A stretch of 64,000 nt of DNA from Dichotomocladium elegans (taxonomy: Eukaryota > Mucoromycota > Mucoromycetes > Mucorales > Lichtheimiaceae): the NCBI GenBank assembly GCA_025716815.1, contig JAIXMN010000009.1, forward strand, positions 930,001 through 994,000, read 5' to 3'. Positions 848-36,521 of the stretch are shown one piece after another. The notes beneath the pieces are model-generated. The model was given only the letters and a program-made list of their open reading frames with translations. It did no database searches and was not told the origin of the DNA. Each line of letters starts with the position of its first letter. Positions within the stretch are counted from its first letter, which is position 1. A program made the translations under genes and the position numbers.

Positions 848-1941
848 CTTTTTTATTTTCAAATAAAATTCGCATAAAAATATGGCATACATAAGGTCGA
901 GACATACCCGTTAGTCAACAGAAATTATCAGCCTCCTTGTTACCCTTTAACTTGCCCGAAGGTAGCTAGGTGCGCCATTGCGGTAACAGTGGCAGACGAG
1001 GGAAGAAAGGAAGGATCCGGGAGCCGTCGAGCGTCGACGGCCGATGCGTCGACGGACCAACGACAACACCAGCGGCAGAAGCAACGGAGGAAGCAGGCAA
1101 ACAAAAGCACTTCAACGGACCCATGGTGGGAGACTTGTGCGGCTGCAGCCAAACCACGGTCCCACCCAAAGCCCATATCGTCTCCTCTCGGGGCACTTGA
1201 GTTAGACTGATATCGTTATCTACAGGATCCGGATTAATAGAAAATTGCAGAATGGAACAAGGGTAAACTATTTCCTTTTACTTTGCTCTTCACAACTGAC
1301 CAAAACTGCTCAATCGGATTGAGTTCAGGAGAGTAGGCTGGAAGATATCCCCGACACATCTGTAGGTGCATTATCCATGATAAAATAGCGCTCTTATGGT
1401 CTTCATTGAGAATACACAAGCAACCCTTCGCTTAAGGTTTCTTTAAAGATTCTGTCAAGTCTTTCTCGTACTGTGATGGCCATTGTTGTGCTGAACAAAC
1501 ATGGATTCCTAGCAGTTGATGCGCACAAGACCTTCTCACACATGAGTTTGAAAATCAAACCTTGCCTTAGTCAGTGTATGCTGTGTAACTGCAGTTGATC
1601 CGCGCTTCTTTCATCCGAATGCCTGTATCCTTTCACTTGGGAATGTGTGCACTACGCAGATATTCAGTGCGAGAACAAAGGGATTGCAAAAAATACATTT
1701 CTTCATCTACAGCATAGTTCATAGGTTCAGGATAGCCAGGCACATCAACAATATGACCTTGGCCATCTTGATAGAAAAATAGATTGCTCATTTCAGAGAG
1801 TAAAAGTGTAAAAAAGAGAAAAGAGATGGAAGCGACCTCTTTCAGTGGATGCATGTGTTATTTGATTTGTCATCTTACGTATTCTGCGCTACATGCGATT
1901 TTATTTTTGTGATCCTGCGACTTTGGTTTTGGAAAATAGTG
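848..1941 (-). mobile_element. Tc1/mariner (IS630-like) element, copy 1, decayed
   Basis: Transposase on the minus strand with an intact-looking DDE tail: DNAP (second Asp) near 1375 and YSPELNPIEQFW (catalytic Glu) near 1300-1335, plus an N-terminal piece at 1633-1800. Frames are broken, so no full transposase is encoded. The ends are CTTTTTTATTTTCAAATAAA at 848 and, reading inward from the right, CACTATTTTCCAAAACCAAA at 1941. Both are followed within 30 bases by a TCGCA motif, and TA lies outside each end (846-847, 1942-1943), as expected for this superfamily. A GC-rich segment at about 940-1200 separates the transposase from the end and is shared with the copy at 35 kb. The right-end sequence also matches the Fanzor-bearing element at 17-20.9 kb. 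Confidence 0.85.
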
Positions 1942-14439: not shown

Positions 14440-16889
14440 ATGTCTGACCTCGACTTGAAGAACCTGCCGGAGCGCGAAGAAGAAATCGACTTTAGCGACA
14501 TTTACGAGAAGCATCAGATCAATGTTGAGGATGATCTCGACACGATCATTGTTGTTGACGGTGCTCCCATCGTCGATGAAGCCAAGGAAGAAAAGTTGCG
14601 GACCGTTTTGACAAAGCTGTTTACAAAGAATGCCGGTGAAATCAAGGAGAATGGCATCTGGATGCCTATGGCTCCCAATGCCAGCGGCAAGCGTGAGAGC
14701 AAGGGGTATGTACTTATCGGCCTGGACTCAAAGGCGATGGGACCGTCCGCCGACCCGTTGGACGCGCGTTATGCTCATCTTGTTTATTTCTAGTTTCCTC
14801 TTCATCGATTTTGAGACCCCCGAAGCAGCCCATGCCGCCATTAAGAATTTGGATGGCCATAAAATGTCTAAGTCACATCAACTTTCTGTCAACCGCTTTT
14901 CAGATGTCGAGAAATACGCTACCATGAGCGACGAGTATGTTCCGCCAGTACAGGAGGAGTTCAAGCCCAAAGAGCACTTGAAGAGTTGGTTAATGGATCC
15001 TCAGGCTCGTGACCAATTCTTCGTGTACCATGGTAACGATGCCGGTATCTACTGGAACCGCAAGTCTGAGAAGCCAGAAGAAGTGTATTCTCGACGGGTA
15101 AGTTTGGTTCACAAAAGGGCGCAATTCTTGTGAGGGTGCTTCATTTGACCTATTTGTTATGAAACAGGACTGGACTCAGGGCTATCTTCAATGGTCGCCT
15201 CTTGGCAGCTATATTGCCACTTTCCATAGCCAGGGCATTGCCCTCTGGGGTGGACCATCATGGGCGCAGATTGTGCGTTTCTACCATCCTGGCGTCAGAC
15301 TTATTGATTTCTCGCCCAATGAGAGATACCTCGTGACTTGGTCGACCGAACCTATCAATCTTTCCCGCATCCCAGCAAACACCCGCCACCCCTTCTCTGA
15401 CTACGACGAGGGCAACCAGACCATTGTCTGGGACATTAAGACCGGCGCCCTGCTCCGAACCTTCCCCTCCACCCAATCTGAGAGCCAACAAAAGACTGTC
15501 CGATGGCCCATGTTCAAGTGGTCTCCCTCTGACAAGTACTTCGCCCGTGTTGTGCCTGGTCAGCAGCTCTCCGTGTACGAGGCTCCTTCGATGACCTTGC
15601 TGGACAAGAAGAGTATCAAGATTGACGGTATTGTCGATTTCGAATGGTCCCCCGCTCTTGGCGGTAAGGCAGATCCTAAGCTCAACCAGAAAGAAGAGGT
15701 GCTGTCCTACTGGACTCCTGAGGTTGGCAACCAGCCTGCACGTGTGACGATTATGGCCATGCCAAGCAAGGAGATTGTGCGGACAAAGAACTTGTTCAAT
15801 GTCACCGAGGTGTGTTATTTGAGCATGATGCAACGAGATAAAGAGAGGAGGCTAAACGTTCTGATTTCTGTATAAAAGTGTTCTCTGTACTGGCAATCCC
15901 AGGGCTACTTCCTTGCAGTCAAGGTCAATCGCCACACCAAAACCAAGAAGTCACAGTTCACCAATCTTGAGATCTTCCGAATGTGCGAGAAGGCCATTCC
16001 TGTCGAGACACTCGAGATCAAGGATCCTGTGCTCAAGTTCGCCTGGGAGCCGAATGGCGAGCGTTTCGCCACGATCAGCACGAACGATCCCGCCTATGGC
16101 GCCGCCCCCAACCAGAGTGGCGCTGCTGCGCCGACCACCATCAAGACCGCTATCACCTTCTACTATCTTGACACAAGCAAAGCTGTGGCAGGTTTCCGCC
16201 CATTGAAAAAGATTGAGAAGAAGACTGCGAACAACTTTGCCTGGTCGCCAAAGGGCCGTCACATCGTCCTTGCCACCATCCGCAGCCCGAGCTCCCACGA
16301 CATTGAGTTCTGGGATCTCGATTTTGAACCTGCCGCTGGCAGCAGTCTCAGCGAAGCTGCCAAGAAGGAGGGCAAGAAGGAGGTCGATTCTATTCAGCTG
16401 CTGGCAACACAGGAGCACTATGGCGTCACAGACATTGAATGGGACCCCACCGGCCGCTACGTGGCGAGTGGCTCCAGCGCATGGCATCATTCCGTCGACC
16501 ACGGCTTCGCCATCTGGGATTTCAAGGGTCAGCAGCTCATCCAGGAGAACATTGATAACTTTAAGCTGCTCCAATGGCGCCCGCGCCCCAAGACCCTACT
16601 CTCCGATGAGCAGAAGAAGAAGATTCGCAAGAACCTCCGACAATATAGCAAGATCTTTGACGAGGAGGACTTGGCTGCTGGCGATGCTAACGCCGCTAAG
16701 CTTATTGCCGCCCGCCGAAAAGCCGTCGAGGAATGGTACGCCTGGAGAAAGCAGGCTGAGAAGCAGATGCTCGAAGAGCGTAAGGCTGCAGGCAAGGAGC
16801 TGCGATCTACCCAGGACGACGGCAAGTCCGAGACTATCGAGGAATGGGTCGAGGAGGTCATTGACGAAGTCGAAGAGATTGTGGATTGA
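14440..16889 (+). CDS. PRT1: Eukaryotic translation initiation factor 3 subunit B
   Basis: Scaffold subunit of eIF3, which recruits the 43S complex and mRNA in the cytosol. Four exons (14440-14705, 14794-15097, 15170-15809, 15880-16889) give 739 residues, the normal family length. The acidic N terminus is followed by an RRM split by intron 1 (splicing restores GFLFIDFE). A WD40-like eIF3b propeller follows: LQWSPLGSYIATFHSQGIAL, VRLIDFSPNERYLVTWS, WDIKTG, FKWSPSDKYFARV, FAWSPKGRHIVLATI, IEWDPTGRYVASGS. The C-terminal helix contains LLQWRPRPKTLLSDEQKKKI and EEWYAWRKQAEKQMLEERKA, and the tail is acidic. The gene looks intact. Codon use is GC-richer than its neighbours, in keeping with high expression. 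A transposon starts about 130 bases after the stop. Confidence 0.97.
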
Positions 16890-17209
16890 GGAAAAGGACA
16901 GAACTTTGGCGAATAATTGCATTATCGGTAGACATAACATAATAAAACGTAACCCATGTATGACGTTCATTGACATCGTTGCATTGCCAATGTATCAGAG
17001 CAAATCTTTTGTATATACACCATTTTTCAAAATCAAAGTCGCACCCTGCCAGTTCTGAAGTCGCAGGATCGCAAAAATACAAATCGCATTTTTGCCCGGA
17101 AATCTTTACGCGTGATGACAAAGCAAAAGTCGCATACATACACGGAAAGATGTCGCAAATCCATCTCATCCTTATGACTCTTTCTCTTTATAAACTTTTA
17201 CATTTTGAA

Positions 17210-17539
17210 ATGAGCAATCTATTATTTTACAACGATGGCCAAGGTCATGTCGCTGATGAGGAAATGTACTCACTTCAATCGGTTTGTTCTTACACTGAAT
17301 ATCTGCGTAGCATATCGTGCAAAGATAACTCTGAGTTTACTCTCACACACATTCCCAAGCGAAAGGATACATACATTCGGATGAAAGAAGCGGGGATCAA
17401 GGGCAGTTACACAGCATACACTGATCAAGGCAAGGTCAGATGTTTCAAACTGGTGTTTGAGAAGATCTTGAGTGCATCAGCTGCAGCAAAACTGCTAGGA
17501 ATCCATGTTCGTTCAGCACAGCGATGGGCATTACAGTAA
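17210..17539 (+). pseudogene. Truncated Tc1/mariner transposase N terminus
   Basis: It opens MSNLLFYNDGQGHVADEEM and runs to the HTH segment ILSASAAAKLLGIHVRSAQR, then stops just after RWALQ. It matches the copy at 36 kb closely over this part. No DDE catalytic domain follows, so this element cannot supply its own transposase. Confidence 0.8.
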
Positions 17540-18069
17540 GAAAAGGACCCTGACAGCATTTTAGGAAACGTAGAAGCAGAGGGCCGATCGTGTATTCTCA
17601 ATGAAGAGCATTTATTGTTCTAGAATGCAATTGTCGCTAAAAATAGCCGTACTCAAAAGAATCAATATCGAGAAGACTAAGTTTATTCTTGGAAAGAACA
17701 AAGAACTATCAGAATGTGCTTGTCGCTTTTGTCAGTGAGCCATTTAGCCTGGAGATTGTAACTCCGAAGCTGGTTATCAAATGGAATAATGAAGTAATGG
17801 CTTTCAGGAGACTCCTGTGTTCTCATTGTAATATTCAGAGAAATTATTCATTATGTACCTACACTTCCTGAACGTATGGATAAGGATGACAGCAGTGTCG
17901 TGTTTTGTTGTGTTGTAAGAGACTGAGAGAGTACGAAAAGAAATACAATCTTCCTACACTACACAAGTGCCGGATATGTATCGGATTATTCTTGAGATGG
18001 TCTCTTGGAATTACTTGTTGGAATTGTTTGGGATTTCATTGTTGATTTCAGACCTCCCTCACGTCGATA

Positions 18070-18225
18070 CAGTGGTCGCCCGTTATAATGATACCCTCGG
18101 TTCCAGGAAATCGCATCACTATAATGAATTGGAATAAGCCCTACCTGGCAATTTTGTCCTTCATAAAGTGTATCGCTATAACGAATTATCATTATAATGA
18201 ATATCACTATAACGAGCGGCCACTG
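18070..18225. mobile_element. Pogo/Tigger-like MITE, 156 bp
   Basis: Terminal inverted repeats CAGTGGTCGCCCGTTATAAT at the left and, inverted, CAGTGGCCGCTCGTTATAGT at the right. Each is flanked by TA (18068-18069, 18226-18227). CAGTGG...CGTTATA ends and a TA target are hallmarks of pogo-type elements. There is no coding capacity. It sits inside the Fanzor-bearing element, 245 bases before the Fanzor ATG. Confidence 0.9.
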
Positions 18226-18290
18226 TAAAACCTCATTAAAGAACCCAGTGGGAAAAAGAAAAACACTGTGGAGATGGATCATTGCTGACA

Positions 18291-18300
18291 CTATAAATAG
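18291..18300 (+). promoter_or_regulatory. TATA box upstream of the Fanzor gene
   Basis: CTATAAATAG, about 170 bases before the ATG at 18471 and 65 bases after the MITE. It is the only good TATA element in the leader. Its use as the Fanzor promoter is an inference. Confidence 0.45.
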
Positions 18301-18470
18301 TGATGCTCAAGCAAACTGTCCCTTTCCATTATCCACATACAAAACTAGAGCCCATACAGCCTACAGAAAATAACACAGCACCACATTTACGGTTGAAAGG
18401 TAATACAGCCGCTTTCATACTCGGCTCTGCGATACTAAGAAATAATATACCCTAGGTCTTCACCCACCAA

Positions 18471-20669
18471 ATGGCCCAACCCCACCGCCCCGTCATTCCC
18501 GAAGGCATGCGCACTGGCCACAGCATTGACCGCACTGGCCGTATAATTGGGGTGAAATCGTCCATACGGGGCATCGGCTGGCGACAGCAGTACCGTGAAC
18601 GTCTGTATCAGTTGGTTGACCTTGTCCACAACACCACAACACAGGCGTACGCGTTCGCCAAATATATTTTCATCAACGAGGCAGCGCGCGATCCAACTTT
18701 TAACATCCAGGAAAACATCACGGAGAAGTTCTTTTCAGAAGTTTGGCTCTCCATGGTAAACAAAGCCGAACGCCGCACCCAAGGTGAAACTGCCCGCATC
18801 CGAGAACTAATTAATCGCCACAAGGATGGGTACCTTCGGATATCCGGATACGACAGGCCTGCGTTCCCTTATTCCCAGCAATGTTCTTCTTACGAAGGCA
18901 CCAAGATTTATACTGCTTACGTGAATAATGTCCACATGCGGTTCGGGCAACACCTTCGGCGTGTCATCAATGTCATCCTGAATCTTCGTCAGCGAAAAGC
19001 CGACCGCAAGCGAGAGTTAATCGCACAGGGCCTAAGCCCCGATCAAGTACGCCAGGACCTTTATGAAACCATCACCCGGCATGCCACAGGATTCAAGCTA
19101 GCAATTGCCCGTCGAGGTGTTTTGAGGGAAGACATTAGTGCCGAACCTGGATTTCTTCGGGAAGCATACGATATCCTACAACCTGTCTTAAACGCTTACC
19201 CCCGAAACCACCAATTCCAACACCAGAGTATCTATTACGACGCCAAGGCCAATCCTGTTAAGCATTTCAACGCCTTCTTCCAGCTTGCACGCGTTTGTCA
19301 ACAGAACGGAATACGCGGATTCAACTGTTTTCCACTTCGTCGCTCGTGGTCACCATGCTACATGGAGATCGATACGAAAATCCTTTGCTACCATATCCTG
19401 GGCTGCAAAATGGAATCCCACACAAGCAATATGGAGTACTGGAGACGTGTTGTAAACCTGAAATCAAGAGCTTTCAAACCCCAAGAATCCGAGCTGCTCC
19501 AATTCCGTGGGACTATTCACACTGACGGCGTCGGTGTTACTGTGTTCAAGAAGACAAATGGCCTTCAATCGGGTTTCGGACAGAGATTTGGCATCCAGAG
19601 CGAAGATATCGAATACGTCACCCCACAGATACTCCGGAACGAAGACTATAGAGGACAATGGGTCACCATTGATCCTGGCAGAAGGGACCTGTTGTATTGC
19701 GTTCATGAGAACTCGTCACCCGACAACCACCAGACCTTCCGATATACAAAGCAGCTTCAAGATCATACACGGAAGACCAAACGGTACTGCAGACTCCGAG
19801 AACGACTCAAGTTAGAGCGACCCGAGGTCGCGTTGGCTGAGCAGAATCTATCTCAATTTCAAAGTCATACGCTTTCCGTGCCCAACTACGACGGATACCT
19901 GCCGCCAAGAATCGGGTCTCTGTAGTTCTCAAGTCTTTCTACGCGACAACCACTACGAACCACCCGAACCCGCAATTTCTTTTTCGAAAACTTCGCCTGT
20001 CAGCGTTTTACAAGAAGCAGCAAGCAGATGAAAAGCTTCTCGACTCTTTGAATGCGAAGTTTGGCAGTAGGTCCGTTTTCGTGATGGGAAATTGGTCTGC
20101 GCCGCATACAAGATATCACGAGCCTATCCGTGGTGTCGGCTTCCGGCGGCTGTTGAAGAAGAACAATTGCAATGTTTATTTGATCGACGAGTACAAGACA
20201 AGCAAGTGCTGCCCTGTATGTGACAATGAAAGCCTTGCTACCTTTAAAATGGTTCCTAATCCACGCCCATATCGACGACCCGACAATCCGCTCACGATCT
20301 GCCATGGCCTGCTACGGTATGAAGGACGGGCATGTTGTGTTATATTTCCAAAAGATTATAATACAGTATTTTGATGTTTCAATAGATGCACAAATCAAAA
20401 CTGTACAGCAGGCATGGCAGAGGGTGTTTGTCAACCAAGGTTATGGAACCGGGGATCTGGCGGCGGCTCTCAACATGCATCATATCCTCCGGGGTCTTCG
20501 GGAAGATGGTATCATCCCAGCAAGGTTCCAGAGAAGAAATGCTGCACAAGCATCCGCAGCTGGTGGAAGGCCACACTCACCTGAACCAGAGCAGCGCAAC
20601 GTGAGACTACGACGGGCAAGGCCAGGAAGGCCACGAGGTGCACGCTCTGGCGGGTCGAGACGACCGTAA
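18471..20669 (+). pseudogene. Fanzor (TnpB-like RNA-guided endonuclease), two frameshifts
   Basis: The 484-codon 5' frame carries the helical N-terminal part typical of Fanzors, the FNCFPLRRSW motif, RuvC-I Asp in WVTIDPGRRDLL and RuvC-II Glu in VALAEQNLS. After a one-base shift near 19,900 the frame continues VLKSFYATTTTN, FRKLRLSAFYKKQQADEKLL, then GFRRLLKKN and DEYKTSKCCPVC. A 69-nt intron (20317-20385, GTATGA...CAATAG) joins CHGLLR to CTNQNC, completing the zinc-finger cysteines. RuvC-III Asp follows in LWNR/DLAAALNM, where an extra G in a GGGG run (20451-20454) shifts the frame. The C-terminal tail is Arg/Pro-rich. All three RuvC acidic residues are present. As given, the gene cannot make a full protein; the two indels are either real decay or sequence errors. 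Fanzors are established eukaryotic relatives of TnpB that cut DNA guided by an omega RNA. Confidence 0.92.
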
Positions 20670-20686
20670 CCCCAACCAAGAATTTT

Positions 20687-20948
20687 CCGCGTCAGTTATC
20701 GCTGACGCACCCAGGATAACCATAGCCCTTCGGGGCAAGCCCCCTTCCTTTGGAAGGACGGTGTGTTGTAAGTCAACGGGATTGGAGAAGGCGTAGTGTT
20801 TTCTGCTGACTAACAGGGTTTCATCCATGGATGCGAAATCTTTTTACCTATTGATACGACAAACTTATATAATTCTATGCGACATTTTTCTTGTATTTTG
20901 CACGACATTATTTTATCTTGTTTACGACATTTATTTTTGAAAATAAAG
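20687..20948 (+). ncRNA. Candidate omega RNA / right-end element of the Fanzor locus
   Basis: Begins 18 bases after the Fanzor stop and runs to the right terminal repeat. Hairpin 1: 20689-20695 pairs perfectly with 20702-20708 (7 bp, loop TTATCG). Hairpin 2: GCCC-TTCG-GGGC at 20725-20736. Hairpin 3: CCTTCC-TTT-GGAAGG at 20743-20757. A weaker GTTG/CAAC hairpin lies at 20765-20777. The same region is recognisable in copy 1 (reverse strand, about 906-993), where hairpin 1 has three compensated stem changes. In TnpB and Fanzor systems the guide RNA scaffold is encoded here and the guide comes from sequence past the right end. The 5' end of the RNA is not known and may overlap the coding region. 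Confidence 0.65.
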
Positions 20949-21170
20949 TATCCGTGAACATCTACGTATTGGGAGTTTATGTCAGAGCTGCTTCAACGTT
21001 CCACACATATTAATCTAGGCTCTGTCTGCCTACAGAGTATCCAAGTTACTTTATTATTTTGGTGAGACGGGGATAGCAACAGCAATCAATGGATCCTACA
21101 AGAGTTACGGTGAGGACGAATCAGTTCTTGATTTTGAAAGCATCAGCGCCCGTGCAGAGGATAAACGTAT

Positions 21171-34969: not shown

Positions 34970-36521
34970 GTCGCATAAAAACAAAAATACTGTCGGGTGG
35001 AATACCCCGTTAGTCAACTGAGAATATCGGCCTCCTTATTTTTTAACTTACCCTGAAGGTAGCTAGGCGTGCTATCGCGGTACCATTGGCGGACGAGGGA
35101 AGAAAGGAAGGATCCGGAGCTGCTGACCGTCGACGGCGGAAAGGTTCGAGGAAGGAACGAGGAGAGACGACGACGGACCAACGACAACACCAGCGACAGA
35201 AGCAACGGAGGAAGCAGACAAACAAAAGCACCTTGACAAAACCATGGTAGGACAATTGCGCGGGTGCAGCCAAACCACGGTCCCACCCAAAGCCCATATC
35301 CTCTCCTCTTGAGGCACTTGAGTTAGGCTGATATCATTGTCTACAGAGGATCCGGGATACTAGAAGATTGCAGAATGAAACAAGGATGACCTATTTCCTT
35401 TTACTTTACTCTTGAAAACTAACCAAAGCTGCTCAATCGGATTGAGTCTAGGCGAGTAGGGTGGAAGATAAGCCCATCGATATCGTCAGCCCTATGGATA
35501 GGTGCATTATCCAGTACCAAATAGTGTCCCTTCATATTTCTTTCCTTGATTGGGGGTTGTGGGAGTCTCAAGCGGTATTAATGATCCCTGATGCTGATAT
35601 TGCTCCCAACAAGGTGGTTGTCTTTGCTCTTGTCTTTGGTATTGTGACCAATGCAGTCGTCCCTTTCTCGGACCATGCCATGCTGCGTTTCATATTAATA
35701 TCGAATCCAGCCTCATCAAGGAAAATGCAGTTTTTTCTAAAGTCGATGTCGGTCCTGTCCCATTTGCGCACCCCAGCCAAGGCGCTCTTGGATCTTCGCA
35801 GCACTATTACTGTATACAGGCTGAAACCAAGCCATTCTCGATGACAAGTTTGCATTCATTATTCGTAAATCGATGGAGTGTCGTTTTAGATACTTTGAGA
35901 CCCTCAAATCTTTGGAGCAGTTGTTCCATCAGCTGCTTTAGGACAATAGATGGATTCTCATCAATGCACTCTAAAACAACGCTTCTATGCTTATCATTGA
36001 GAATACCCGAACGACTCGTCGCTTTAGGCTTCTTAAAGATGCTGTCAAGGCCTTTCTCGTACTGTAATGCCCATCGCTGGGCTGAATAAACATGGATTCC
36101 AAACTGGTTTGCAGCAGCTGATGCACTCAAGATCTTCTCACACATGAGTTTGAAAAATCTGACCTCGTCTTGGTCCTGCTTCTTTCATCCAAACGTCTGT
36201 ATCCTTTCGCTTGGGAATGCGTATAATAACTATCTCTGCAAGATATGCTACGCGCATATTCAGTGCGAGAACAAGCGGATTGGAGAGAGAAAATTTCTTC
36301 ATCAACGACATGATCTTGACCATCTTTGTAGAAAAATAAATTGGTCATTTTTGAATGTAAAAGTGTAAAAAAGAGAAAAGAGATGGAAGCGACATCTTCC
36401 CGTGGATGCATGTGACATTTGATTTTTCATCGTATGTAGTCTGGGCAAAACGCGATTTTATTTTTGTGATCCTGCGACTTCAGAACTGGCAGGGGTGCGA
36501 CTTTGATATTGGCAAATACAG
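34970..36521 (-). mobile_element. Tc1/mariner (IS630-like) element, copy 2, decayed
   Basis: The most complete transposase of the window, but broken into several minus-strand frames. N terminus with MTNLFFYKDGQDHVVDEE; HTH region ILSASAAANQFGIHVYSAQR; linker; first Asp in CIFLDEAGFDINMKRSMAWS; second Asp in DNAPIHR; Glu in PYSPRLNPIEQLW. The transposase 5' end matches copy 3 closely (AAAGTCGCAC...CCAGTTCTGAAGTCGCAGG), and a TA lies at 36522-36523. The other end keeps the GTCGCATAAAAA motif, but its outermost ~28 bases do not match the other copies, so that end is truncated or altered. The GC-rich segment at 35060-35320 is shared with copy 1. Confidence 0.85.

Follow-up and report, generated by a model that had tools for sequence, protein, structure and literature searches.

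The locus described here raises the question of why eukaryotic transposons keep a Fanzor gene. The window, which is the whole stretch of 64,000 nucleotides that was analysed (Dichotomocladium elegans, contig JAIXMN010000009.1, positions 930,001 to 994,000), carries on its forward strand a 3,931-bp non-autonomous Tc1/mariner-type element with a Fanzor1 gene (17018-20948). The element reads CACC...AAAG and has TA outside each end (17016-17017 and 20949-20950). We regard it, with a probability of roughly 0.8, as a decayed copy of a young, amplified, non-autonomous Tc1/mariner-type family whose only selected gene is Fanzor1. The initial annotation, made from the letters of the window, had placed a Fanzor gene inside a Tc1/mariner-type transposon, and the copies found in the genome, with their shared ends and flanking TA, bear this out.

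Copies and ends of the element

A DNA search of the same 39.4-Mb fungal genome retrieved at least 38 copies of the unit (a lower bound; 38 of 1372 first-look candidates were scored), and all 38 places were taken with flanks of about 1 kb for alignment. In 26 copies, one continuous alignment spanned the 3931-bp query from position 41 or earlier to 3824 or later; these copies had the same two ends and differing flanks. The remaining 12 copies were truncated or internally rearranged. The copy ends were sharp, with CACC/CACT-ATTTTTCAAAAT on the left and GAAAATAAAG on the right. The left-end pattern had 102 matches in the genome and the right-end pattern, with up to 2 mismatches, had 363; the reversed control gave 0 in both cases. 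The right end (20921-20948, forward strand) has its own palindrome. The Fanzor element carries terminal inverted repeats of the Tc1/mariner family; by eye, its two ends match each other only imperfectly.

Fanzor1 gene

The gene consists of exon 1 (18471-20316, forward strand) and exon 2 (20386-20669, forward strand), separated by a 69-nt GT-AG intron within the zinc ribbon (20317-20385, forward strand). A 639-codon open stretch extends beyond the first zinc knuckle, and removal of the intron joins CHGLLR to CTNQNC...WNRDLAAALN, bringing in the second zinc knuckle and the WNRD motif of exon 2 and giving a product of 709 residues. The intron is 64-65 nt long in older subfamilies, and a Fanzor of 52% identity (L054) has an intron at the equivalent position by eye. 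Of the 38 copies, 18 had an open spliced frame of 702 or more codons; 16 of them also had GT-AG (702-709 codons), and 14 of these 16 contained all six of the motifs DPGRRD, DEYKTS, WNRDLA, CPVC, CTNQNC, and AEQNLS.

The Fanzor1 pattern D-X(125,275)-[TS][TS]XX-C4 zinc finger-X(5,50)-RD defined by Bao and Jurka (PMC3627910) was present in spliced L010, an intact copy, with the DPG aspartate at 401 and the RD aspartate at 639. L010 matched PpFz1 (PDB 9cf0), its closest solved relative and an RNA-guided nuclease (PMC11423790), with an E-value of 1.6e-117, and SpuFz1 with 4.3e-43, which establishes its kinship by sequence to proven Fanzor1 nucleases. A database search gave 118 homologues, the named ones being fungal and the best being 48% identical over 98% of the query.

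The window copy of Fanzor is dead. Exon 1 is frameshifted, with the frame lost before a stop at residue 484, and the frame is broken again at the NRD motif of exon 2, so that the Fanzor1 pattern is not readable in a single frame. The DPGRRD and CCPVC motifs initially read from the window were present. The NRDLAAALN motif holds for intact copies, which read WNRDLAAALN, but the open frame of the window copy gives GTGDLAAALN and its main frame stops at 484. The letters AEQNLS, proposed as a RuvC-like motif, are likewise present, but they probably do not contain the catalytic glutamate: with positions counted by eye in the alignment, the D383-E541 spacing of SpuFz1 (PMC10432273) leads to residue 574, the glutamate of DEYKTS.

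Selection on Fanzor1 and on the transposase remnant

Besides Fanzor1, the element contains a 109-codon open reading frame (ORF) at 17210-17539 (forward strand) with weak helix-turn-helix (HTH) matches, which is the N-terminal remnant of a transposase without a DDE domain. The truncated transposase of the initial annotation is thus confirmed as an N-terminal HTH piece.

For exon 1, the majority codons of the main group (13 of the 38 copies) were compared with those of the second group (10 copies); seven others formed an intermediate group, and eight were left out. Between the main and second groups there were 18 synonymous and 5 nonsynonymous differences, corresponding to a ratio of nonsynonymous to synonymous substitution rates (dN/dS) of 0.08 (binomial p = 2e-8). 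The synonymous and nonsynonymous counts were 4 and 2 between the main and intermediate groups, and 14 and 3 between the intermediate and second groups. For the transposase remnant, 15 copies were compared with 8 (partly other copies than those used for exon 1), and there were 5 synonymous and 17 nonsynonymous differences, with a dN/dS of 0.92, as in neutral evolution. The codon contrast between Fanzor and the remnant gave a Fisher p of 3e-4. Fanzor is under purifying selection between subfamilies, and no such selection is detectable on the remnant.

Divergence of the second group from L010 was 2.1-3.5% in exon 1, 6.6-12% at positions 40-560, 1.6-6.9% at positions 600-1060, and 1.5-4.9% directly before the gene. 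As divergence was also low outside exon 1, the argument is carried by the codon contrast and not by raw divergence alone. Over 36 copies, variation was 0.018 at codon positions 1 and 2, 0.033 at position 3, and 0.041 in the intron. Changes seen in a single copy among 15 main-group copies comprised 25 synonymous and 21 nonsynonymous changes and no stops.

Parental family and transposase

The left end and 5' part of the element (17018-17611, forward strand) are common to a parental Tc1/mariner family: in blastn, bases 1 to about 595 of L010 matched seven relatives of about 1.8 kb (L047-L053) and two relatives in the window with 70-84% DNA identity. The longest frames of the seven relatives were at most 177 codons. 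In three of the seven (L053, L050, and L052), the last 25, 90, and 107 bases of the Fanzor element, respectively, were matched as well. Homology to full elements stops near position 595, Pfam gave weak TNB and HTH matches and nothing else for the ORFs of the window, and a DDE frame was not seen in the Fanzor-element copies that were read. Lacking a DDE transposase of its own, the element is a non-autonomous member of the family, and its movement needs a transposase in trans, as had been proposed for it.

An open 475-codon transposase was found at C57 (L054), with a DDE_3 match of E = 1.8e-30 and 34 residues from the second D to the E by eye. A near-identical open 475-codon frame was present at C44 (L055). 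The element's own family has open DD34E-type transposase frames at two places, but which transposase moves the Fanzor family is an inference, since the L054 end is of another type and the ends of the other open transposases were not seen.

In the L054 unit (C57:1659300-1664900), a diverged open-frame Fanzor lies tail to tail with the open transposase, which is a second arrangement of the two genes. The far end of the unit was searched for and was not found. At C44, the last 3.1 kb of this unit recur with 98-99% identity, split by about 6 kb. Two stop-free 452-codon transposase frames with 63% identity to the probe lie at C31:605136-605570 and C31:610371-610805, inverted and about 5 kb apart.

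The element at 848-1941 (reverse strand), initially described as transposase-bearing, lacks the DDE region and is rather a derivative of the parental Tc1/mariner family that deletion has shortened to 1.1 kb. Its ends had been said to match those of the Fanzor element. This is exact for the left end (left pattern at C112:931926), but the right end resembles that of the Fanzor element by eye only, as blastn at an E-value of 1e-3 gave no match. A second decayed parental member with pieces of the DDE region lies at 35006-36480 of the window.

Insertion site and border motif

Among the 38 copies, 29 had a recognisable left end, and in 28 of these TATA precedes it. In the window, this host TATA occupies 17014-17017, and its last TA (17016-17017) is the target-site duplication. 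The right end was recognised in 31 copies; TA follows in all 31 (20949-20950 in the window), and the next base is T in 26 and C in 5. Host sequence past the right TA would be the guide.

A single paralogous empty site without gaps was obtained, and it coincides with the boundaries of the element. One copy, L030 (C31:908844-912789), interrupts a second, diverged copy of the Fanzor element within its right end, which runs in the opposite direction. When the flanks of L030 were joined with one TA dropped, they aligned without gaps over 35 bases with the right ends of other copies, and dropping the second TA cost 4 points against 8 of 8 right ends, one of which is L030's own. The duplication is therefore TA, as in Tc1/mariner elements, and the preceding TA is host DNA. 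An element starting TACACC with an extra TA of its own was ruled out by the same joined flanks, where the single-TA drop scores 4 higher. The flanks of copy L023 are both found again at C35:678143-678273, separated there by 46 bp, an arrangement that may be a deletion remnant, a footprint, or a separate small insertion.

In Spizellomyces punctatus, a conserved CA was reported directly outside the left repeat, and the target-adjacent motif (TAM) is CATA (PMC10432273). Transferring the border and TAM geometry of SpuFz1 to the present element, TATA is the predicted TAM of its Fanzor. Among the places listed (100 of 102 left-end places), TATA was present at 30 of the 31 left ends that are followed downstream by a listed Fanzor and at 9 of 38 left ends of the ATTTTCC type; two unclassed left ends were without it.

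Candidate omega RNA

Directly 3' of the Fanzor stop lies a block of GC-rich hairpins (20679-20800, forward strand; first hairpin at 20689-20708) with a fold z-score of -2.15. From its position and folding, this conserved block is a candidate omega-RNA scaffold. Over 36 of the 38 copies, the hairpin core had a diversity of 0.012. Towards the 3' side, diversity rose to 0.037-0.043 over the following 78 bases, fell to 0.017 over 40 more, and was 0.036-0.037 at the end. With up to 1 mismatch, the first hairpin had 93 matches in the genome (control, 0). A listed Fanzor lay within 2.5 kb 5' of 56 of these and not of the other 37, the Fanzor list not being exhaustive. The hairpin was unchanged beside the Fanzors at C50 and C34 (64-72% identity). 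At C46:1029412-1030645, it occurs together with both element ends, which are 1.23 kb apart; this is too short for exon 1, so the place is a gene-less derivative. The OMEGA system initially suggested is not supported as such for the window copy: its Fanzor is broken, and the omega RNA is a structural candidate only.

Proposed mechanism and alternative explanations

In the mechanism that we propose, a DD34E transposase from other elements would cut and paste the unit at the TA within TATA. RNA from the 3' hairpin block and the right end would run on into the right flank, which would act as a guide, and Fanzor with this guide RNA would recognise the vacated site by its TATA and flank and cut there. 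Repair of the cut site from an occupied copy could then restore the element and raise its copy number. A more far-reaching proposal, which we advance only tentatively, is that a long-lived transposase-free lineage survives through Fanzor as its selected gene, which would restore copies in cis, with the TATA TAM filtering which TA insertions persist. If true, a parasite of another element's transposase would shape its target choice through an RNA-guided nuclease.

Several observations weigh against this account or parts of it. Over all 38 copies, single-copy changes amounted to 112 synonymous, 229 nonsynonymous, and 11 stops, which indicates that individual copies decay while propagating lineages keep Fanzor intact. 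Whereas the Fanzor family has ends of the ATTTTTC type, the end of the L054 unit reads CACTCTTTTCC (CTTTTCC). A genome search with the flanks joined for 22 further copies (40 of 45 first-look candidates scored) found no gapless empty site, so the empty-site test rests on one case. Of 29 ATTTTTC-type ends that had no listed Fanzor, 25 were also marked by TATA. TATA may thus be a preference of the transposase, and an attribution of TATA to the presence of Fanzor alone was not separable from it; these ends may be either gene-less derivatives or a sign of such a preference. For the candidate omega RNA, the whole 279-nt 3' region folds with a z-score of only -1.24, covariation analysis of the 3' RNA in 31 copies gave 0 compensatory pairs of 57 predicted, Rfam gave no match for 16900-21100 at E-values up to 1, and none of the nine listed Fanzors with less than 60% identity was found to have the first hairpin (up to 1 mismatch) beside it.

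Fanzor could alternatively be a passenger in a scaffold resembling a miniature inverted-repeat transposable element (MITE), useless to the element, its intact frames merely reflecting one master copy that was amplified very recently. In favour of this, exon 1 of most main-group copies is within 1% of L010, leaving little time for decay, 20 of the 38 copies have no open spliced frame of at least 702 codons, and divergence directly before the gene is about as low as in exon 1. The excess of synonymous differences between subfamilies in the Fanzor exon (18 to 5, against 5 to 17 in the remnant, from slightly different copy sets) and the lower variation at codon positions 1 and 2 than at position 3 and in the intron speak against it, and we consider this explanation unlikely. 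Purifying selection could also act at the level of the host, which might keep Fanzor intact for its own benefit, for instance as a defence directed at other mobile DNA; yet dozens of copies, many of them dead and at many sites, look like the spread of an element rather than one kept host gene, which makes a host benefit likewise an unlikely cause. Two separate insertions that flank Fanzor by chance, one with its end at 17018 and the other at 20948, would be conceivable at one locus, as Tc1/mariner relatives are common in the genome (71 matches). The 26 continuous copies with the same two ends in differing flanks refute this reading and leave it a negligible probability; with the coinciding empty site, they support the single insertion assumed at the outset.

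Diverged Fanzors and age of the partnership

Among the matches listed from a search of the genome with the Fanzor protein (71 of 860 candidates scored), nine places had less than 60% identity (49-58%). A Tc1/mariner transposase region and the left end lie 5' of the Fanzors at C79, C40, C28:303363, and C1:1235651 on the same strand. The right-end neighbourhood was evaluated for the first 100 of 363 places, and among the matches listed, an exact right end was present 0.5-0.9 kb 3' of the Fanzors at C28:303363, C45:344422, and C1:566438, and also of the less diverged ones at C50 (72%) and C34 (64-68%). At C28:301075-305427, the left end, part of the transposase, Fanzor, and the right end follow one another in this order. 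Neither the transposase nor the right end was among the matches listed for the Fanzors at C46:1279662 and C68:1669.

Thus, seven of the nine listed Fanzors below 60% identity (including that of L054) sit with the same transposase or right end, which makes the partnership an old one. The term 'captured' in the initial annotation suggests a recent event and is not supported by these data. The head-to-tail Fanzor families may all have one transposase breakpoint in common, but Tc1 copies without a listed Fanzor break nearby too.

Comparison with known Fanzor elements

In 2013, Bao and Jurka (PMC3627910) described PUl-4, a Fanzor1-only element with Mariner ends, and PGv-1 and PUl-1, which combine Fanzor1 with a Mariner transposase. 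As in the present element, Fanzor1 lies in mariner-type repeats with TA duplications, the transposase being absent or within the same element. Here, in contrast, one and the same genome shows the parental DD34E family and its open copies, the subfamilies, the selection acting on each of the two genes, and an empty site, and the Fanzor gene has an intron in its zinc ribbon.

SpuFz1 of Spizellomyces punctatus (Saito et al. 2023, PMC10432273) is likewise a Fanzor in terminal repeats without a transposase and occurs in many copies. Its 'ghost' copies, which have ends and no gene, are comparable to C46:1029412-1030645 here, and its conserved dinucleotide directly outside the left repeat (TAM CATA) to the conserved border TATA. 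Unlike it, the present element of about 3.9 kb keeps a transposase remnant, and its omega RNA and cleavage are only predicted. The closest solved structure by sequence is that of PpFz1 from Parasitella parasitica (PDB 9cf0; Xu et al. 2024, PMC11423790), with DPGRRD aligned. About 90 residues of PpFz1, near residue 505, have no counterpart here and are presumably its cyclophilin-binding FRI domain. The TAM of PpFz1 is ATN (PMC11423790), whereas TATA is predicted here.

Although Fanzor-only elements with mariner ends were already known, the selection contrast found here bears on what Fanzor is for. Our literature search, in which subscription papers were mostly outside the scope, found no study contrasting selection on a Fanzor and on a transposase remnant within one element family. 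A natural test is available in one genome, with intact and broken copies, a drifting remnant beside a constrained Fanzor, and candidate transposases in trans, and the sharp TATA border motif predicts the TAM. The reason why eukaryotic transposons keep Fanzor thereby becomes a question for the bench, in yeast.

Nested and neighbouring features

A MITE with CAGTGG...CCACTG ends between TA repeats is nested in the element at 18070-18225, and the corresponding TA site is empty in copies L044 and L046. At the same site, L040 and L043 have a TA-TG-TA footprint resembling that of excision. Directly 5' of the Fanzor element, part of an eIF3 subunit B-like gene lies at 15981-16889 of the window; it has 74-77% identity to unnamed proteins, and the named sequences most closely related to it are from Gigaspora, Scutellospora, and Jimgerdemannia.

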